Source: Sphingomonas sp. 28-63-12 (lineage in GTDB: Bacteria; Pseudomonadota; Alphaproteobacteria; Sphingomonadales; Sphingomonadaceae). From it: 64,000 nucleotides of DNA. The translations under genes were made by a program, and so were the position numbers. The stretch covers positions 124,001 to 188,000 of the forward strand of contig NCGD01000003.1 in NCBI GenBank assembly GCA_002281535.1, in the 5' to 3' direction. Position 1 is the first letter of the stretch. Every line of letters begins with the position of its first letter. Below the pieces are notes generated by a model. That model was not told the DNA's origin. It did not search any database and saw only the letters and a program-made list of their open reading frames with translations. Below are positions 1 to 28,337 of this stretch, piece by piece.

Positions 1-351
1 ATCTTTGCCGAGGACATGGCGGGCCAGCGCTTCACTTTCTACGCGCCGCAGGTGTGGACCCGGCAGCGCCGCATCCTGATGCCGACCGCGTCGATCCTTG
101 GCACACATCTGTGCAATGCCTTCGAAGTGGCACGGATGAACGACATGATTGCGGCGGGGTTGCTCGAAGTGACGGAACCGCAAGTGGTGCCGTGGGACGG
201 GCTGCCCGAGGCGCATCAGGCGATGTGGGACAACCGCCATTCGGGCGCGACCTATGTCGTCAACCATGCGCTGCCCGAGATGGGGCTGCGCAGTCGCGAT
301 GCCTTGCTGGAAGCATGGGCGGCGCGAGAATCGCTGGTGGCTGATCCCTAA
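1..351 (+). CDS. pcs: C-terminal fragment of an enoyl-CoA reductase, probably propionyl-CoA synthase (5' end outside window)
   Basis: The frame is open from the first base, so the gene starts upstream of the window. The visible 116 residues match the end of the medium-chain dehydrogenase/reductase family that includes crotonyl-CoA carboxylase/reductase and the C-terminal reductase domain of propionyl-CoA synthase: a WTRQRRI segment after the nucleotide-binding fold, then VVPWDGLPEAHQAMWDNRH and a short tail. Propionyl-CoA synthase is a three-domain enzyme (acyl-CoA synthetase, enoyl-CoA hydratase, acrylyl-CoA reductase) that converts 3-hydroxypropionate to propionyl-CoA. The next gene makes 3-hydroxypropionate, so that identity is the best inference. 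A stand-alone acrylyl-CoA or crotonyl-CoA reductase is the alternative, because only the reductase tail can be seen. Confidence 0.6.
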   Translation: MFAEDMAGQRFTFYAPQVWTRQRRILMPTASILGTHLCNAFEVARMNDMIAAGLLEVTEPQVVPWDGLPEAHQAMWDNRHSGATYVVNHALPEMGLRSRDALLEAWAARESLVADP

Positions 352-483
352 TCCGATCGGCATCGGGCAAACCCCGTTGCCGTTCTCTAATAATCAACGA
401 TATGATCAGCTTCGCCCTCCCCAGGCTCTGAACACATCAATGCGCGGATCATCAAGGCACCGCGAGATTACTGGGAGCGTGAC

Positions 484-3400
484 ATGGCCAAGGCAAAGAC
501 CAATCTGACTCCAGAAACGGGGCCCCCCACCGCTGGCGGCCGGCTGGCCGGCAAGATCGCTGTGGTCACGGGGGCGGCGGGCAATCTGGGCGGGTATATC
601 GTCCGCCATTATCTCGCCGAGGGCGCGACGGTGGTGATGACCGGTCGCACGCCCGCGCGCACTGACGCAGCGGCAGAAGCGATCCGCGCCGAGACTGGCG
701 TCGATGCGACGCGGCTGGCCACGGTGGCGCTCGACGGGGGCGATCCTGAATCGGTGCGCAAGGGCATTGCCGATGTCGTCAAGCGCTTTGGGCGGATCGA
801 CATTCTGGTCAACAATGCGGGCTCTGCGGGCCCCAAGCAGCCGCTGGAGCAATTGCCGATCGACGCCGCGGAACTGGCCGCGCTGCAAAAGGGCGGGTCG
901 ACCGATGGCGAGACCGTCGGCGACGCGATCCGCAACATCTTTGGCGTGGCCTGGAACGTGTCGCGCGCCGCCGCGTCGGCGATGGGTGAAGGCGGGTCGA
1001 TCATCAACGTCTCGACCATCTTCTCGCGCACGCCCTATTATGCGCGCACGGCCTATGTCGTGCCCAAGGCGGCAATGAACGCGTTTTCGCGCGAATTGTC
1101 GTTGGAACTCGGGCCACGAGGCATTCGCGTGAACCTCGTCTTCCCGGGGCCGATCGAAAGCGAACGCATCCGCAGCGTTTTCGCGACCATGGATACGATG
1201 CGCGGCGACGAAGCGGGCACCACCGCCAACCAGTTCTTCGATATGATGTCGCTCGAACGTGCGACCGGCGGCAATGCGAAGGCCAAGACCTTCCCGACCC
1301 CGACCGATATCGCCACCACCTGCGTGTTCCTGGGGAGCGACGAGTCGGCCGCCTATAACGGCCATGATTTCGAGGTCACCCACGGGATGACCGTGCGCAA
1401 GGAAGAGCGCGCCACCTATCTGTCGCGGCCGACGATGCGATCAATGGACGGGGCGGGCCTTGCGGTGCTGATCGCGGCGGGTGATGGCTGGCAGGAAGCG
1501 CTGGAGATCGCCAATATCCAGATCGCCTGTGGCGCGCGGGTGTTGCTGGGCCTGACGCGACAGGCGGACGTGGCGATTGCGCAGGCGCGGGCCAAGGCGG
1601 AAGGCGCCGATGACCGGCTGACGATCGTGCGCTTCAACCGCACCGAGCCCGGAGCGATGGAGGCGGCGCTCGACGCCTATACCAAGGACAATGCCCCGAT
1701 TACGGGCGCGATCTTCATGCCGGTGCTGGGGCCGGGCGAGCTGGTCGGCGATCTGGTCGACGCGACCGATGAGGATGTCGAACGCTTCATGGATGCCGAG
1801 CTGGCGGGCAGCATTGCGTTGGCGCGCACGCTCAGCCGTTACTGGAAGCGCAACGACAATCTGCTGCAGGAGCCACGTTTCGTGTTCCTGACCAACCCGA
1901 CCGACGGCAAGGGCGACGTCTATGCCCAGATGCTGCGCGCATCGACCGAGCAGCTGATCCGCATCTGGCGCGACGAATCCGACATCGACGTGGCGCATGG
2001 GCGGCGGCGACAGGCGGAATGGGGCAACCAGATCGTCCGCTTCGGCAATGCAGAAGCCGAGAATACGCGATTCACCGCGGGCCACGCCGCGCGCATCTTG
2101 CTGAAGGAGAGCAAAATCCGCGAGGTGACGCTTTATGTGCCATCGAGTATTGGCGAGGCAACGGGATCGCGCAAGGCGATGCCGGGGTTCAGCGAGAACA
2201 TCACCGGCCTGCATCTGGGCAAGGTGGCGCTGATCACGGGCGGGTCGGCCGGGATTGGCGGGCAGGTCGCGCGGTTGCTGGCGCTGGCGGGCGCCAAGGT
2301 GATGATGGTTGCGCGGCGCGAAAGCGAGCTTGCCGTGGCGCGCGCGCGGATCGTCAGCGAACTGGAGGATATCGGTTTTGCAGGGGTCGAACGGCGCGTG
2401 CAGACGCTCGCCAATGTCGACGTCAGTAATTTTGAATCGTTGAAGGGCGCGGTCGATGCGACGCTGAAGGCGTTCGGGCGGATCGATTATCTGATCAACA
2501 ATGCCGGGGTCGCGGGCGCCGAGGATATGGTCGTCGACATGAGTGTCGATGCCTGGAACTACACGCTCGATGCCAATCTGATCTCCAATTATTTCCTGAT
2601 GCACCATGTCGTGCCGCTGATGAAGCGCCAGGGATCGGGCTATGTGCTGAACGTCTCGTCCTATTTCGGCGGCGAGAAATATCTGGCGGTCGCCTATCCG
2701 AACCGTGCCGATTATGCGGTGTCGAAGTCGGGGCAGCGCGCGATGGTCGAGGCGATGTCGCGCTATCTGGGGCCGGAGGTGCAATTCAATGCGATCGCGC
2801 CGGGGCCGGTGGACGGTGATCGGCTGGCGGGGACGGGGGGCAAGCCCGGCCTGTTCGAACGGCGGGGCAAGCTGATCCTGGAGAATAAGCGGCTGAATGC
2901 GATCCATGCGGCGGTGGTGAAATCGCTGCGGCGCGGGGTACGCGTGGAGGCGGTGCTGACCCGGCTGGCGCGCAACGACACCGTCCGGATGTCGCACGAT
3001 ACCAACAACCCAAGGGAGATCCGCGATCTCGCGCTGGCCTGCGCGCGCGAGGGGGACGGGGTCTGTACGTGGGACCAGTATCTGCTGACCCCGCCGATCG
3101 CTGCAGCGCTCGTCTCGCGGCTGCGCAAGGGCGGCTATTTCCTTGATGCGCCAGGCTGGGCCGATCGGCCCGATACCCCGGAGGCCAATGGCGGCTGGCT
3201 GCTGCGCACGCCGCCCGCCGATGCGCCGTTCCTCCCCGCCGACAAGATCGCCGTGGAGGCGCAAAAGGTTGGGAGCGGGGTGCTGTCCAAGCTCTATCTC
3301 GGCAAGATGCCGACAGAGACCGATGTGGCACAGGCGACGGTTTTCTTTCTGGCCGACCGCGCGGTGTCGGGCGAAACCTTCATGCCCTCGGGCGGCCTGT

Positions 3401-4182
3401 CGGTCGAGCGATCGACCACGGAGCGTGAGTTGTTCGGCAGCCCCAAGCAGGAGCGGCTCGATCAGATGCGCGGCAAGACGGTGTGGATCGTCGGCGAGCA
3501 TCTGGTGGATTATATCGCCGAGACCGCGCGTGCCTTTATCAACGAATGCCAAGTCGCGCGCGTGGTGCTGATTACGCGGACGGCGGAAGGGTTCGATATG
3601 CTCAAAGAAGCGTTGGCGGATGTGCCCGCCAACGTGCTTCAATCGATCGTCTGCGGGGACTCGGTCGAGACGGCGATGAACGCGGCGCTGCTGCAATGGG
3701 GACGACCGACGACCTTGCTGTCGACGCCGTTCGACGCCCTGCCGCAAAAGCTGTTCGAGCTGGACGATCCGCTCAGCCCCGAGGAATTTCGCGCGCTGGT
3801 CGCGGGCAATTTGACCAATCATTTCCGCGTTGCGCGCAAAGCGTCGCTCTATGATGATTGCCAGCTGGTGCTGGCGTCGCCCGACGTGCCGATGGGCGAC
3901 AAGAGCCCGGCCTTTGCGCTTGCCAATTTCATCAAGACAACGCTCCATGCTTTTACAGCGACGCTGGCGGTGGAAAATGAGCGGCTGGTGCATGACGTGC
4001 CCGTCAACCAGATCAATCTGACGCGGCGCGTGCAATCGGAGGAACCACGCAATCTTGACGAACATCTCGAGGAGGTGAAGCGCTTTGCCCGCGCGGTGTT
4101 GCTGGTCGGCGCGCCGCTGCCCGATGCAGAAGATTCGCGCTATCGATCGCGCATCTATCGCGGCATGGCGATGACGGTTTAA
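484..4182 (+). CDS. mcr: bifunctional malonyl-CoA reductase (3-hydroxypropionate forming)
   Basis: The 1232-residue protein has two tandem short-chain dehydrogenase halves and matches the Chloroflexus aurantiacus enzyme (about 1220 aa) end to end from memory, with near-identical stretches such as LHLGKVALITGGSAGIGG. The N half has TGAAGNLG (29-36), NNAG (110-113) and a Tyr191-x3-Lys195 pair. The C half has TGGSAGIGG (585-593), NNAG (672-675) and Tyr744-x3-Lys748. In Chloroflexus the C half reduces malonyl-CoA to malonate semialdehyde and the N half reduces that to 3-hydroxypropionate, both with NADPH. The end, ALPLPDAEDSRY-like through RIYRGMAMTV, is also conserved. The ATG is preceded by GGGAG about 7 bases upstream. 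It lies 132 bases after the reductase fragment and 9 bases before accA, which suggests one operon. Confidence 0.95.
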   Translation: MAKAKTNLTPETGPPTAGGRLAGKIAVVTGAAGNLGGYIVRHYLAEGATVVMTGRTPARTDAAAEAIRAETGVDATRLATVALDGGDPESVRKGIADVVKRFGRIDILVNNAGSAGPKQPLEQLPIDAAELAALQKGGSTDGETVGDAIRNIFGVAWNVSRAAASAMGEGGSIINVSTIFSRTPYYARTAYVVPKAAMNAFSRELSLELGPRGIRVNLVFPGPIESERIRSVFATMDTMRGDEAGTTANQFFDMMSLERATGGNAKAKTFPTPTDIATTCVFLGSDESAAYNGHDFEVTHGMTVRKEERATYLSRPTMRSMDGAGLAVLIAAGDGWQEALEIANIQIACGARVLLGLTRQADVAIAQARAKAEGADDRLTIVRFNRTEPGAMEAALDAYTKDNAPITGAIFMPVLGPGELVGDLVDATDEDVERFMDAELAGSIALARTLSRYWKRNDNLLQEPRFVFLTNPTDGKGDVYAQMLRASTEQLIRIWRDESDIDVAHGRRRQAEWGNQIVRFGNAEAENTRFTAGHAARILLKESKIREVTLYVPSSIGEATGSRKAMPGFSENITGLHLGKVALITGGSAGIGGQVARLLALAGAKVMMVARRESELAVARARIVSELEDIGFAGVERRVQTLANVDVSNFESLKGAVDATLKAFGRIDYLINNAGVAGAEDMVVDMSVDAWNYTLDANLISNYFLMHHVVPLMKRQGSGYVLNVSSYFGGEKYLAVAYPNRADYAVSKSGQRAMVEAMSRYLGPEVQFNAIAPGPVDGDRLAGTGGKPGLFERRGKLILENKRLNAIHAAVVKSLRRGVRVEAVLTRLARNDTVRMSHDTNNPREIRDLALACAREGDGVCTWDQYLLTPPIAAALVSRLRKGGYFLDAPGWADRPDTPEANGGWLLRTPPADAPFLPADKIAVEAQKVGSGVLSKLYLGKMPTETDVAQATVFFLADRAVSGETFMPSGGLSVERSTTERELFGSPKQERLDQMRGKTVWIVGEHLVDYIAETARAFINECQVARVVLITRTAEGFDMLKEALADVPANVLQSIVCGDSVETAMNAALLQWGRPTTLLSTPFDALPQKLFELDDPLSPEEFRALVAGNLTNHFRVARKASLYDDCQLVLASPDVPMGDKSPAFALANFIKTTLHAFTATLAVENERLVHDVPVNQINLTRRVQSEEPRNLDEHLEEVKRFARAVLLVGAPLPDAEDSRYRSRIYRGMAMTV

Positions 4183-4191
4183 GGCGTTAGG

Positions 4192-5148
4192 GTGAGCGAT
4201 TATCTGCCCTTCGAGAAGGCCATCGAGGCGCTCGACCAGAGCGCGGCGAGCTTGCGCCGCGCGGGCGAGCGGCTGGACGAGGCCGCGCAGCTGGAGGAGC
4301 GGGCGCAGCGCCAACTGGCCTTTCTCTACAGCAAGCTGACGCCGTGGCAGCGCGCAATGGTCGCACGGCATCCGGCTCGTCCGCACATTAATCACTATAT
4401 CGCCGGCCTGCTGGACGATTTCATGCCGCTGGGCGGGGACCGTGCCTTTGCCGATGATCAGGCAATGATTGGCGGGCTGGCGAGCTTCCAGGGGCGGCCG
4501 GTGGTGGTGATGGGCCACGCCAAAGGCGAAGATACGGCCTCGCGGCTCAAGCATAATTTCGGGATGGCCAAGCCCGAGGGCTATCGCAAGGCGATCCGGC
4601 TGATGGACCTGGCCGATAAGTTCGGCTTGCCGGTGATCACGCTGGTCGACACGCCGGGTGCCTTTCCGGGCATGGATGCGGAGGAACGCGGCCAGGCCGA
4701 AGCGATCGCCCGCAGCACCGAGCGCTGCCTGTCGCTGGGCGTGCCGATCATCGCGGTGATTGCGGGTGAGGGCGGATCGGGCGGCGCGGTCGCGCTGGCG
4801 GCGGCCAACCGCGTGCTGATGCTGGAGCATTCGATCTATTCAGTGATTTCGCCGGAGGGCTGCGCCTCGATCCTGTGGCGCAGCGCCGCGCGCGCTGCCG
4901 AGGCGGCCGAAGCGATGAAGATCACCGCAAGCGAGCTGCTCCGCCTGGGGGTGATCGACCGTATCGTCTATGAGCCGGCCGGGGGCGCGCACCGCGACCA
5001 CGCCACGATGATCAAGCGGGTCGGGGTCGCGCTGGCAGCAGAATTGGCGGCGCTTGGCCCCATGTCATCCGGCGATCTGCGTGCCGAACGGCGGACCAAA
5101 TATCTCCAGATCGGGCGGCAGCTGCCGGCTGGGAGCGATCAGCATTGA
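4192..5148 (+). CDS. accA: acetyl-CoA carboxylase carboxyltransferase subunit alpha
   Basis: This 318-residue protein has the full length of AccA. It has the N-terminal coiled-coil-like helix rich in Glu, Arg and Ala, the RPHINHYI region, [35 protein letters not shown] and the oxyanion-type [11 protein letters not shown] and [11 protein letters not shown] motifs. With AccD it transfers the carboxyl group from carboxybiotin to acetyl-CoA to give malonyl-CoA, the substrate of the gene just upstream. It starts with GTG 9 bases after the mcr stop and is very probably co-transcribed. The accB and accC genes of the same enzyme lie about 21 kb away, and accD is not in the window. Whether this is the only accA or a dedicated second copy cannot be decided here. 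Confidence 0.93.
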
Positions 5149-25961: not shown

Positions 25962-26498
25962 TCAAGGATTGACGGGCTTGCCGGTCCGCCATTCCGTAAT
26001 CGCATCGCGATAAGCACTCGATCCTTTGAGTTTTGCAAGATAGCGGATCGGTCGTTTGCTGCGATAGGGGATTGCGCCGTGCAGGAACGAACCCCGCGCG
26101 CCGCAATAGGCTTTGCAGCTGCCCTCGTCGCTCCAGCGGAGTTCGTCGCCATTCCGTTCGATCCGGAGCATGCAAGTCTGCTCGTCCTCGACCAGCGGCG
26201 CGGCGGCGCGATAGACCAGTGCCTCTCCGTCGGCGGTCGCCACGCCGGCCAGGCTGCAGCTATGGCCATTGTAGAAATCGAGGGCAAAGCGGACATAGGC
26301 TGTGCGGGGAGCGACCGGGACGATTTCGACGATATCCTCGCCCGTATACGTCTCCCCCGTGACCAGGGCATTGGGAAATTGCTCATAATAGCGGCCGGCA
26401 AGTAGCGTCGCCGGGTCAGGTGCCGCGCCACTGGCGGCAGCCAGCAACGACAGCATCCCCGCCATCCCCGCCATCCCTGCCATCAGGGCACGCCGCAT
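25962..26498 (-). CDS. predicted secreted protein of unknown function
   Basis: The 178-residue protein has a signal peptide ([19 protein letters not shown], with cleavage near ASGA/AP) and four to six cysteines in the mature part (HSCSLAG, DEQTCML, GSCKAYCGARG), suggesting disulfides in the periplasm. The ATG overlaps the accC stop (TGATG) and has GGAGG upstream, so it is expressed with accBC. No family is recognised. Confidence 0.72.
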   Translation of the reverse strand: MRRALMAGMAGMAGMLSLLAAASGAAPDPATLLAGRYYEQFPNALVTGETYTGEDIVEIVPVAPRTAYVRFALDFYNGHSCSLAGVATADGEALVYRAAAPLVEDEQTCMLRIERNGDELRWSDEGSCKAYCGARGSFLHGAIPYRSKRPIRYLAKLKGSSAYRDAITEWRTGKPVNP

Positions 26499-27850
26499 CA
26501 CCCCTCCTGTCTGGCCAGCCACTCCTCAAGCCATTTGATCGTATACTCACCCTTCTGGAAATCGGGCTCGTCGAGCAGCGCCTGGTGGAGCGGAATGGTT
26601 GTCTTCATCCCGTCGATCACGAACTCCTTGAGCGCGCGGCGCAGGCGGCGCAGCGCGCCCTGGCGGGTGGTGCCGTAGACGATCAGCTTGGCGATCATCG
26701 AATCGTAATAAGGCGGCACCCGGTAACCGGCGTAAAGCCCGCTATCGACGCGGACATGCATGCCGCCCGGCGCATGAAACTGCTTCACCAGCCCTGGTGA
26801 GGGGGCGAAGGTGCGCGGGTCCTCGGCATTGATCCGGCATTCAATCGCATGGCCGCGAAACACCACATCTTCCTGGCGCAGCGTCAGCGGGTGGCCTTCG
26901 GCAATGCGGATCTGCTCGCGCACCAGATCAAGCCCGGTAATCGCCTCAGTCACGGGATGTTCGACCTGGAGCCGGGTGTTCATTTCGATGAAATAAAATT
27001 CGCCATTTTCCCACAGAAACTCGATCGTCCCGGCGCCACGATAGCCCATATCGGCCATCGCCTTGGCACAGATGCCGCCCATCCGCTCGCGATCTTCAGC
27101 GCCAAGCACGGGGGAGGGCGCCTCTTCGAGCACCTTCTGATGGCGGCGCTGCAGCGAGCAATCGCGCTCGCCAAGGTGAATGGCGTTGCCCTTGCCGTCG
27201 CCGAACACCTGAAACTCGATATGGCGCGGATTGCCGAGATATTTTTCGAGATAGACGGTAGCATCGCCAAATGCCGCCTTGGCCTCGGTGCCGGCCTGCT
27301 GCATCTGCGTCTCAAGGTCGGTTGCGCTGGTCACTACCTTCATGCCGCGCCCGCCGCCGCCCGATGCAGCCTTGATGATTACCGGATAGCCGACACGCTC
27401 GGCGATGGCTTTGGCTTCGGCAATGTCGCTGATTGCGCCGTCCGATCCCGGCACCAACGGCAGGCCCAATGCGCCCGCCGTACGCTTGGCTTCGACCTTG
27501 TCGCCCATCGTGCGGATATGTTCGGGCTTAGGGCCGACAAAGATGATGTCGTGCGCCTCGACGATATCAGCGAATTTGGCATTTTCGCTGAGAAAACCAT
27601 AGCCGGGGTGGATCGCATCCGCGCCCGAGATTTCGGCGGCCGAAATAATGTTGGGGATATTGAGATAGCTCTCGGTCGCCGGTGGCGGGCCGATGCAGAT
27701 CGCCTGATCGGCGAGCCGGACATGCATGGCATCGGTATCCGCCGTCGAATGGACCGCGACGGTTTCGATGCCCATTTCATGGCAGGCGCGGTGGATGCGC
27801 AGCGCGATCTCGCCGCGATTGGCGATCAGCAGCTTCTTGATCTGGGCCAT
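26498..27850 (-). CDS. accC: acetyl-CoA carboxylase biotin carboxylase subunit
   Basis: AccC carboxylates biotin on AccB using ATP and bicarbonate. The 450-residue protein has an ATP-grasp fold: [59 protein letters not shown] and [13 protein letters not shown]. It starts 1 base after the accB stop. The pair supplies the biotin half of the enzyme whose accA is at 4.2 kb. Confidence 0.97.
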
Positions 27851-27851
27851 G

Positions 27852-28337
27852 TTACTCGACGACGATAAGGGGTTGGTCGAATTCGACGGGTTGACCATTT
27901 TCGACCAGAATCGCGGTGACCGTGCCGGCGGCCGGCGCGATGATCGGGTTCATGACCTTCATCGCTTCGACGATGACCAGAGTTGCGCCCGCCGCTACCT
28001 TGTCGCCAATCGAGACAAACGCCTTGGCGCCCGGTTCGGGGAAAAGATACACGGTGCCGACCATCGGTGATTTCACGGCATTGGCGGTCGACGGCGCCGG
28101 TGCAGCCTCGATCATCGCTGGTGCAGCGGTAGCGGCAGCAGGCGGTGGCGGCGCGTAATGCGGCATCGGCGCAGCAGCGGCGGCCATCGTCACTGTCCGG
28201 GCGACGCGCACGCGGCGATCGCCGTCTTCGACTTCGATTTCAGTCAGCTGCGTTTCGTCGAGCAGTTCGGCGAGCTGGCGCACCAGCGACACGTCGATCC
28301 GCATCGGCCCTTCATCTGTACCCGTCGTATCCGCCAT
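27852..28337 (-). CDS. accB: acetyl-CoA carboxylase biotin carboxyl carrier protein
   Basis: The 161-residue BCCP has a N-terminal helical region, an Ala/Pro-rich linker (about 55-85) and a C-terminal biotinyl domain ending in [13 protein letters not shown], where the Lys of AMKVM is biotinylated. An AAGGGAC stretch precedes the ATG. It is followed closely by accC and preceded by aroQ, an arrangement common in alphaproteobacteria. Confidence 0.95.

Follow-up and report, generated by a model that had tools for sequence, protein, structure and literature searches.

A linked pcs-mcr-accA unit and its probable role in light-supported conversion of acetyl-CoA to succinyl-CoA in a sphingomonad

The window analysed here is a stretch of 64,000 nucleotides from Sphingomonas sp. 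28-63-12 (assembly GCA_002281535.1, contig NCGD01000003.1, positions 124001-188000; C41 of genome G000 in our numbering, so that window base 1 is G000:C41:124001). It opens with three genes on the plus strand that encode a propionyl-CoA synthase (pcs), a bifunctional malonyl-CoA reductase (mcr) and an alpha subunit of the acetyl-CoA carboxylase carboxyltransferase (accA2). An earlier note, made from the letters of the window alone, had placed a reductase tail at 1-351, mcr at 484-4182 and accA at 4192-5148, all on the plus strand, and had read them as the first half of the 3-hydroxypropionate bicycle in a sphingomonad-like genome. These coordinates proved right, the sphingomonad-like relatives were borne out, and Pcs, Mcr and AccA were identified by family models and solved homologues. 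The gaps measure 132 bp between pcs and mcr and 9 bp between mcr and accA2; because of this spacing and the shared strand, pcs, mcr and accA2 are probably transcribed together as a single unit.

Just the 3' end of pcs (1-351, plus strand) lies in the window. The whole gene runs from an ATG at C41:118922 to 124351 (G000:C41:118922-124351), mostly upstream, and encodes 1809 amino acids (aa). It had been suspected to be a truncated three-domain synthase, and the upstream extension agrees with this: Pfam and NCBIfam models matched, in order, an acetyl-CoA-synthetase-type ligase, an enoyl-CoA hydratase and a crotonyl-CoA-reductase-type part, and phmmer aligned the protein to 6eqo, which we take to be the Erythrobacter NAP1 enzyme, in two stretches (24-1594 and 1562-1797) that span residues 24-1797 of 1802. 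Because of these three parts and the near full-length match, the idea that the upstream gene lacks synthetase and hydratase domains can be set aside. By its models, the architecture is that of a propionyl-CoA synthase, with ligase, hydratase and reductase in one chain of about 1800 residues, and its predicted activity is the formation of propionyl-CoA from 3-hydroxypropionate.

The mcr gene (484-4182, plus strand) starts with ATG and encodes 1232 aa. Its product matched the solved chains 6k8v and 6k8s (N and C half), presumably those of the Porphyrobacter dokdonensis Mcr, and also the longer chains 8hi4 and 8hjw. Each half holds one pair of the short-chain dehydrogenase/reductase (SDR) type, Y191/K195 and Y744/K748, as expected from the general SDR motif and invariant in all 12 aligned sequences (own included). 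The matches over both halves are consistent with the full two-SDR malonyl-CoA reductase proposed before, and by homology the protein is of the fused type, with two halves, about 1220 residues and a Tyr-Lys in each half. Both Pcs and Mcr have solved homologues and are not themselves new enzymes.

The third gene, accA2 (4192-5148, plus strand), begins with GTG and encodes 318 aa. Its product scored above the curated AccA equivalog cut-offs (NF004344, 439.1 against 357; TIGR00513, 378.8 against 319.3). A second, higher-scoring accA of the genome, the housekeeping one, lies on another contig (C45:134227-135156). The claim that a carboxyltransferase subunit is built into the same run therefore stood as to position, since accA is beside mcr, but accA2 is an extra, separately evolving copy and the cell has another.

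Searches across the order (396 genomes, 84 genera) found mcr in 35 genomes and 8 genera. At the 30 loci examined from these 35 carriers (own included), pcs adjoins mcr in 30/30 and accA in 22/30, and the adjacency of the three genes is thus not a matter of chance. When accA was counted in 55 genomes (the 35 carriers and 20 mcr-less congeners; E up to 1e-60), two copies were present in 20 of the carriers and one in the remaining 15, and all 20 congeners had one. G155 and G238, which belong to another genus than the window's, have as their sole accA the copy directly beside mcr, which indicates that a linked copy can serve acetyl-CoA carboxylase. The single accA of G105 lies about 2 kb from mcr.

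In a phylogenetic tree of 85 AccA rows, the 42 linked AccAs group in one clade (support 96/98) that is separate from the housekeeping copies; the short G297 row was dropped, and the Roseiflexus AccA was included without being ranked among the linked ones. The Glacieibacterium AccA (L114, from G105), 2 kb from mcr, fell outside this clade, and a 43-row label that includes it needs 2 changes; the positions of the AccAs of G105 and G233, both on long branches, are unsure. A recent duplication of the host's own accA as the source of accA2 was considered and is not supported by the tree. In 10 genome pairs, some sharing members, dN/dS was 0.065-0.23 for the linked accA versus 0.029-0.14 for the housekeeping copy, at a dS of 0.36-1.0; these low ratios indicate that the linked copy is kept by purifying selection. 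Furthermore, 135 positions are invariant in 34 housekeeping AccAs (6 deep-branching rows left out), of which 104 are kept in the 42 linked AccAs with at most one exception, and the two groups differ in their fixed residue at 4 positions. The lineage to which AccA2 belongs goes with pcs-mcr, and AccA2 may raise the supply of malonyl-CoA when the unit is on.

A quick Mcr tree, made without bootstrap from 101 rows (115 hits minus 7 below 90% coverage and 7 same-genome duplicates), placed the 38 accA-bearing rows mostly together, with 3 changes needed instead of 1. The exceptions are a Caulobacteraceae metagenome-assembled genome (MAG) without accA inside the accA-bearing group and G233 at its base; the nearest named relative of the window's Mcr is L053. 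This topology fits a single joining of accA to pcs-mcr, followed by joint descent or transfer. Most carriers of genus g2 are of the accA-linked type, and three (G205, G207 and G284) carry an Mcr of another branch without adjacent accA, a split that points to transfer within the family.

In this order, the carriers of mcr also have photosynthesis genes. The reaction-centre marker PF00124 was found in 79 of the 396 genomes, namely in 35/35 mcr carriers versus 44/361 genomes without mcr (Fisher p 1.9e-28 if species are treated as independent, although in fact they are related). At the genus level, all 8 mcr genera are among the 22 of 84 with PF00124 (p 7e-6), and the window's genome has two PF00124 matches on C26. 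Such genes had been described in the earlier note as known from a few marine aerobic phototrophs; they are not confined to a few marine strains, as 35 of 396 genomes carry mcr, all with reaction-centre genes. More widely, we examined 80 named loci from five phyla, those that ranked best among 527 relatives; 50 of these genomes were searched with PF00124 and the other 30 with BchY only. A reaction-centre or BchY match was obtained in 76/80 carriers: PF00124 in 43/50, the 7 negatives (a Sphingomonas MAG, three Chlorobi-type MAGs, two Chloracidobacterium and one Myxococcales MAG) all having BchY, 2 of them below its cut-off, and BchY in 26 of the remaining 30. Two records titled Klebsiella pneumoniae (L097 and L098) are MAGs with pcs-mcr and reaction-centre genes, and their titles are most likely wrong.

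Carboxylase genes recur beside pcs-mcr in these named loci. The synthase gene is present in 66/80; about half of the 14 loci without it have the edge of the stretch close to mcr, and the rest are from Chloroflexales, Chlorobi-type bacteria and Chloracidobacterium. Directly after mcr, accA was found in 21/80 loci, some being the same genomes as in the order set, and in one (Glacieibacterium) it lies 2 kb away. When the open reading frames (ORFs) were clustered, the most widespread families were those of mcr, pcs and accA (17 loci), and the next real family reached 8/80. Other lineages carry other arrangements. A Roseiflexus MAG has the order accD-accA-mcr-pcs-accC. A Phenylobacterium MAG has a long carboxylase ORF (L108:1-4494, its start outside the stretch) that contains a biotin-carboxylase part and ends 22 bp before pcs, and a homologue (66% identical), biotin-dependent and of unassigned substrate, stands directly before pcs in a Rhodopila MAG. 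In a Pseudomonadales MAG, the neighbour of pcs, on the opposite strand, is a carboxylase-type ORF that combines AccA-like and biotin-carboxylase parts. This repeated linkage by different types of carboxylase gene makes the strongest case for the importance of the carbon-input step in the route.

Genes for the other steps were found elsewhere. On the minus strand of the window lie an accB-like gene (27852-28337, 161 aa), whose biotin motif EAMKVM was recognized by eye and not by a model and which may supply the biotin carrier, and a gene for an accC-like biotin carboxylase (26498-27850, 450 aa), which shares 54% identity with the accC next to pcs in the Roseiflexus MAG. AccB and AccD of the genome were read by eye from ORFs, and the AccC-like protein was assigned by similarity. 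For the fate of propionyl-CoA, the earlier note had called for a downstream route in the genome, and its parts were detected: methylmalonyl-CoA mutase (MCM), a biotin-carboxylase-type ORF about 1.7 kb from the MCM gene, and a PccB-type gene of predicted substrate, probably split over the ends of contigs C43 and C38. MCM is present in 35/35 mcr carriers. In two genomes its matches fall into two neighbouring pieces (G297:C1:2113481-2115014 and G382:C23:55213-56681), which may be frame breaks, sequencing errors or split genes. The RuBisCO large subunit, the marker of the Calvin cycle, was detected in 0/35 carriers, the window's genome included (E up to 0.001). Isocitrate lyase (PF00463), considered as a possible complementary pathway, gave 0/396 at E up to 1e-60, a strict cut with a model that other lyase types may escape, and nothing is concluded from it.

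From gene content and homology, together with linkage, the joint occurrence with photosynthesis genes and selection on accA2, we consider it likely that the pcs-mcr-accA2 unit serves to make succinyl-CoA from acetyl-CoA and two bicarbonates with the support of light, as anaplerotic co-assimilation in a photoheterotroph and not as autotrophy. Acetyl-CoA carboxylase, composed of AccA2 and of AccD, AccB and AccC encoded elsewhere, would make malonyl-CoA, and Mcr would reduce it to 3-hydroxypropionate. Pcs would then form propionyl-CoA, and a propionyl-CoA carboxylase (PCC) and MCM, both encoded elsewhere in the genome, would carry it on to succinyl-CoA. Mcr consumes two NADPH, and Pcs consumes ATP and a third NADPH. 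If the enzymes are active in the strain as predicted and the flux runs in this direction, acetyl-CoA and two bicarbonates would give a C4 acid at a cost in ATP and NADPH that light would help to spare.

Several observations weigh against this reading or narrow it. The species of the order are not independent: the presence of mcr takes just 4 changes on a tree of 40 housekeeping AccAs, and a phylogeny-aware pair test of mcr with the reaction centre had at most 4 independent pairs, too few to give it power. No mcr was found in 44 of the 79 reaction-centre genomes, so the order's phototrophs do not need it, and BchY, the sole marker tried there, was missing in 4/80 named carriers (all MAGs). According to PMC9802188, the bicycle genes of Gemmatimonadota are tied to inorganic electron donors and not to light. 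A PpsR-like TGTN12ACA site was seen before pcs in 3/65 upstream stretches of 460 bases, no more than the chance level estimated by hand; one of the three is in the window's genome, about -201 from the protein start used, and PpsR-type regulation is given no weight here. Congeners without mcr have MCM almost as often (18/20). With respect to accA2, 8/30 loci have no accA beside mcr, which means that the route does not need it, and in G297 (L026) the match of the linked accA is split, with a missing stretch and a short ORF, whereas no internal stop interrupts mcr. The accA2 of G297 may be on its way out.

A bolder extension of the favoured reading is that pcs-mcr is in practice dependent on phototrophy, that is, kept only with a bacteriochlorophyll photosystem, passed between lineages as a cassette and repeatedly given a carboxylase part of its own, which here would be a dedicated AccA lineage by which the malonyl-CoA used in CO2 assimilation is kept apart from that for fatty acids. 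We offer it tentatively and would not yet count on it. If true, mcr would predict phototrophy, and partial CO2 assimilation through 3-hydroxypropionate would be a common option of aerobic phototrophs (35/79 reaction-centre genomes), not an oddity of a few strains.

A question raised by the accA2 data is whether the gene contributes to the route at all. It is possible, though we lean the other way, that pcs-mcr at some point came to lie next to a native accA and that the block then spread in sphingomonads with accA as baggage, bringing no gain specific to the route. This would suit genus g28, in which the sole accA is the linked copy and which stands near the base of the accA-bearing Mcr group, as well as the mostly identical positions kept by linked and housekeeping copies and the many pcs-mcr loci without adjacent accA. 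Against it, accA has stayed beside mcr under purifying selection despite a second accA in the genome, over the large dS found in the 10 pairs; a split and short match occurs in just 1/20 linked copies of two-accA genomes; and different carboxylase genes stand beside pcs or mcr in other lineages.

Another explanation is that the route mainly assimilates external 3-hydroxypropionate or propionate, or disposes of reductant, with Mcr as a side entrance. For such a use Pcs, PCC and MCM would suffice, and related proposals are in print: organic-substrate assimilation for incomplete gene sets in Actinobacteriota (PMC9802188) and co-assimilation of CO2 with organic substrates (PMC10674011). However, Mcr is unnecessary for the uptake of 3-hydroxypropionate and yet lies beside pcs at every order locus examined, the carboxylase genes recur on the acetyl-CoA side, and the disposal of reductant leaves the ATP cost of Pcs unexplained. 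We therefore regard this explanation as unlikely.

As for the second half of the bicycle, three HpcH_HpaI proteins were found in the window's genome, which is 94.8% complete. They are 26-28% identical to the Mcl-like proteins of Rhodopila (L107) and Methylibium (L090), and their aligned parts, the parts scanned, scored best against citrate-lyase or itaconate-type lyase models, below the cut-offs. The malyl-CoA lyase model that they missed is haloarchaeal; the Rhodopila protein also misses it (82.5 versus 500 bits), and this model is thus no test of malyl-CoA lyase. None of the three candidates is clearly a malyl-CoA lyase; as no suitable bacterial model was among the matches, absence of the enzyme from the genome can be called no more than likely. 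In the stretches searched (near the HpcH_HpaI matches, and C41, C17 and C26), the best matches to Mct of the same two MAGs were 26-33% identical and those to Mch 34% over half, and the second half was not found there; the likely product is succinyl-CoA and not a closed cycle.

Three further gene clusters touch on this part of the pathway. A run on C34 (L190:5389-10198 of G000), in which one of the three HpcH_HpaI proteins lies, holds a RipC-like lyase, two CaiB-type genes, an Ich-like hydratase and an acyl-CoA dehydrogenase, partly recognized by eye, and may serve itaconate-type catabolism or a route from citramalyl-CoA to acetyl-CoA and pyruvate. In L107:1-18158 (Rhodopila MAG, acetobacterial), carboxylase, pcs, mcr and Mch-, Mct- and Mcl-like genes lie together, the Mct-like gene reaching 527 bits with TIGR04253 against a cut-off of 725. 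In L090:930-13672 (Methylibium sp. NZG), Mct-, Mcl- and Mch-like genes stand directly before pcs-mcr on one strand.

That the cell runs the whole bicycle, with autotrophic growth possible, could be argued from the complete first half, the carriers' lack of RuBisCO, the second-half-like genes beside pcs-mcr in the Methylibium and Rhodopila MAGs and the complete bicycles reported in phototrophic Burkholderiales MAGs (PMC9802188), but it is very improbable given the low identities of the three HpcH_HpaI proteins and, in the stretches searched, of the Mct and Mch matches, the latter two in an apparent itaconate-type cluster.

Part of the favoured route, the conversion of acetyl-CoA to succinyl-CoA, is already known: the Pcs and Mcr enzymes, the first-half pathway and, in Porphyrobacter, the rise of key pathway enzymes by day. 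Porphyrobacter ULC335 has no full fixation pathway, but key bicycle enzymes are present in it, as in Erythrobacter NAP1, and are raised by day (PMC10674011); the bicycle that phototrophs of Microcystis blooms appear to use is incomplete, PCC not being detected (PMC11089705); a complete bicycle is reported in phototrophic Burkholderiales MAGs and in Gemmatimonadota, and the 3-hydroxypropionate/4-hydroxybutyrate cycle is proposed for Luminiphilus (PMC9802188); Roseiflexus Pcs, Mcr and AccA peptides were labelled by 13C-bicarbonate at mid-day, at relaxed stringency (PMC12542760); and the ligase domain of the Erythrobacter NAP1 Pcs has been put to use (PMC11599936). In our set, a Luminiphilus MAG (L119) has a fused Mcr with the end of a Pcs upstream, and a bicycle-type first half may explain part of the assignment made for Luminiphilus in PMC9802188. 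What is new is the second accA that travels with the unit, along with the reaction-centre genes in every carrier of the order and the repeated carboxylase genes beside pcs-mcr. No statement on the linked accA lineage or on the order-wide count of mcr and reaction centres was found in the accessible literature searched, subscription papers lying outside it, and this negative result does not prove novelty. It has long been asked what light gives aerobic anoxygenic phototrophs besides ATP; the route provides a concrete, deletable answer, and the linked accA offers a testable idea on the sharing of malonyl-CoA between lipid synthesis and CO2 assimilation.

Compared with known systems, the MAGs of Burkholderiales and Gemmatimonadota likewise have bicycle genes outside Chloroflexota, the former with predicted photosynthesis, but they have glyoxylate-side genes (PMC9802188), none of which was found here in the stretches searched. 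The partial bicycle of Porphyrobacter ULC335 and Erythrobacter NAP1 shares with the window's genome the key enzymes, the kind of host and probably the lack of a full fixation pathway, and differs in that the accessible text of PMC10674011 names no accA. Relative to Chloroflexus and Roseiflexus, the order here is pcs-mcr-accA, the AccA is of a separate clade, the host is a sphingomonad and the second half was not found in the searched stretches; the first half is the same, with Acc, Mcr and Pcs followed by PCC and MCM, and in the Roseiflexus MAG, too, acc genes flank mcr-pcs.

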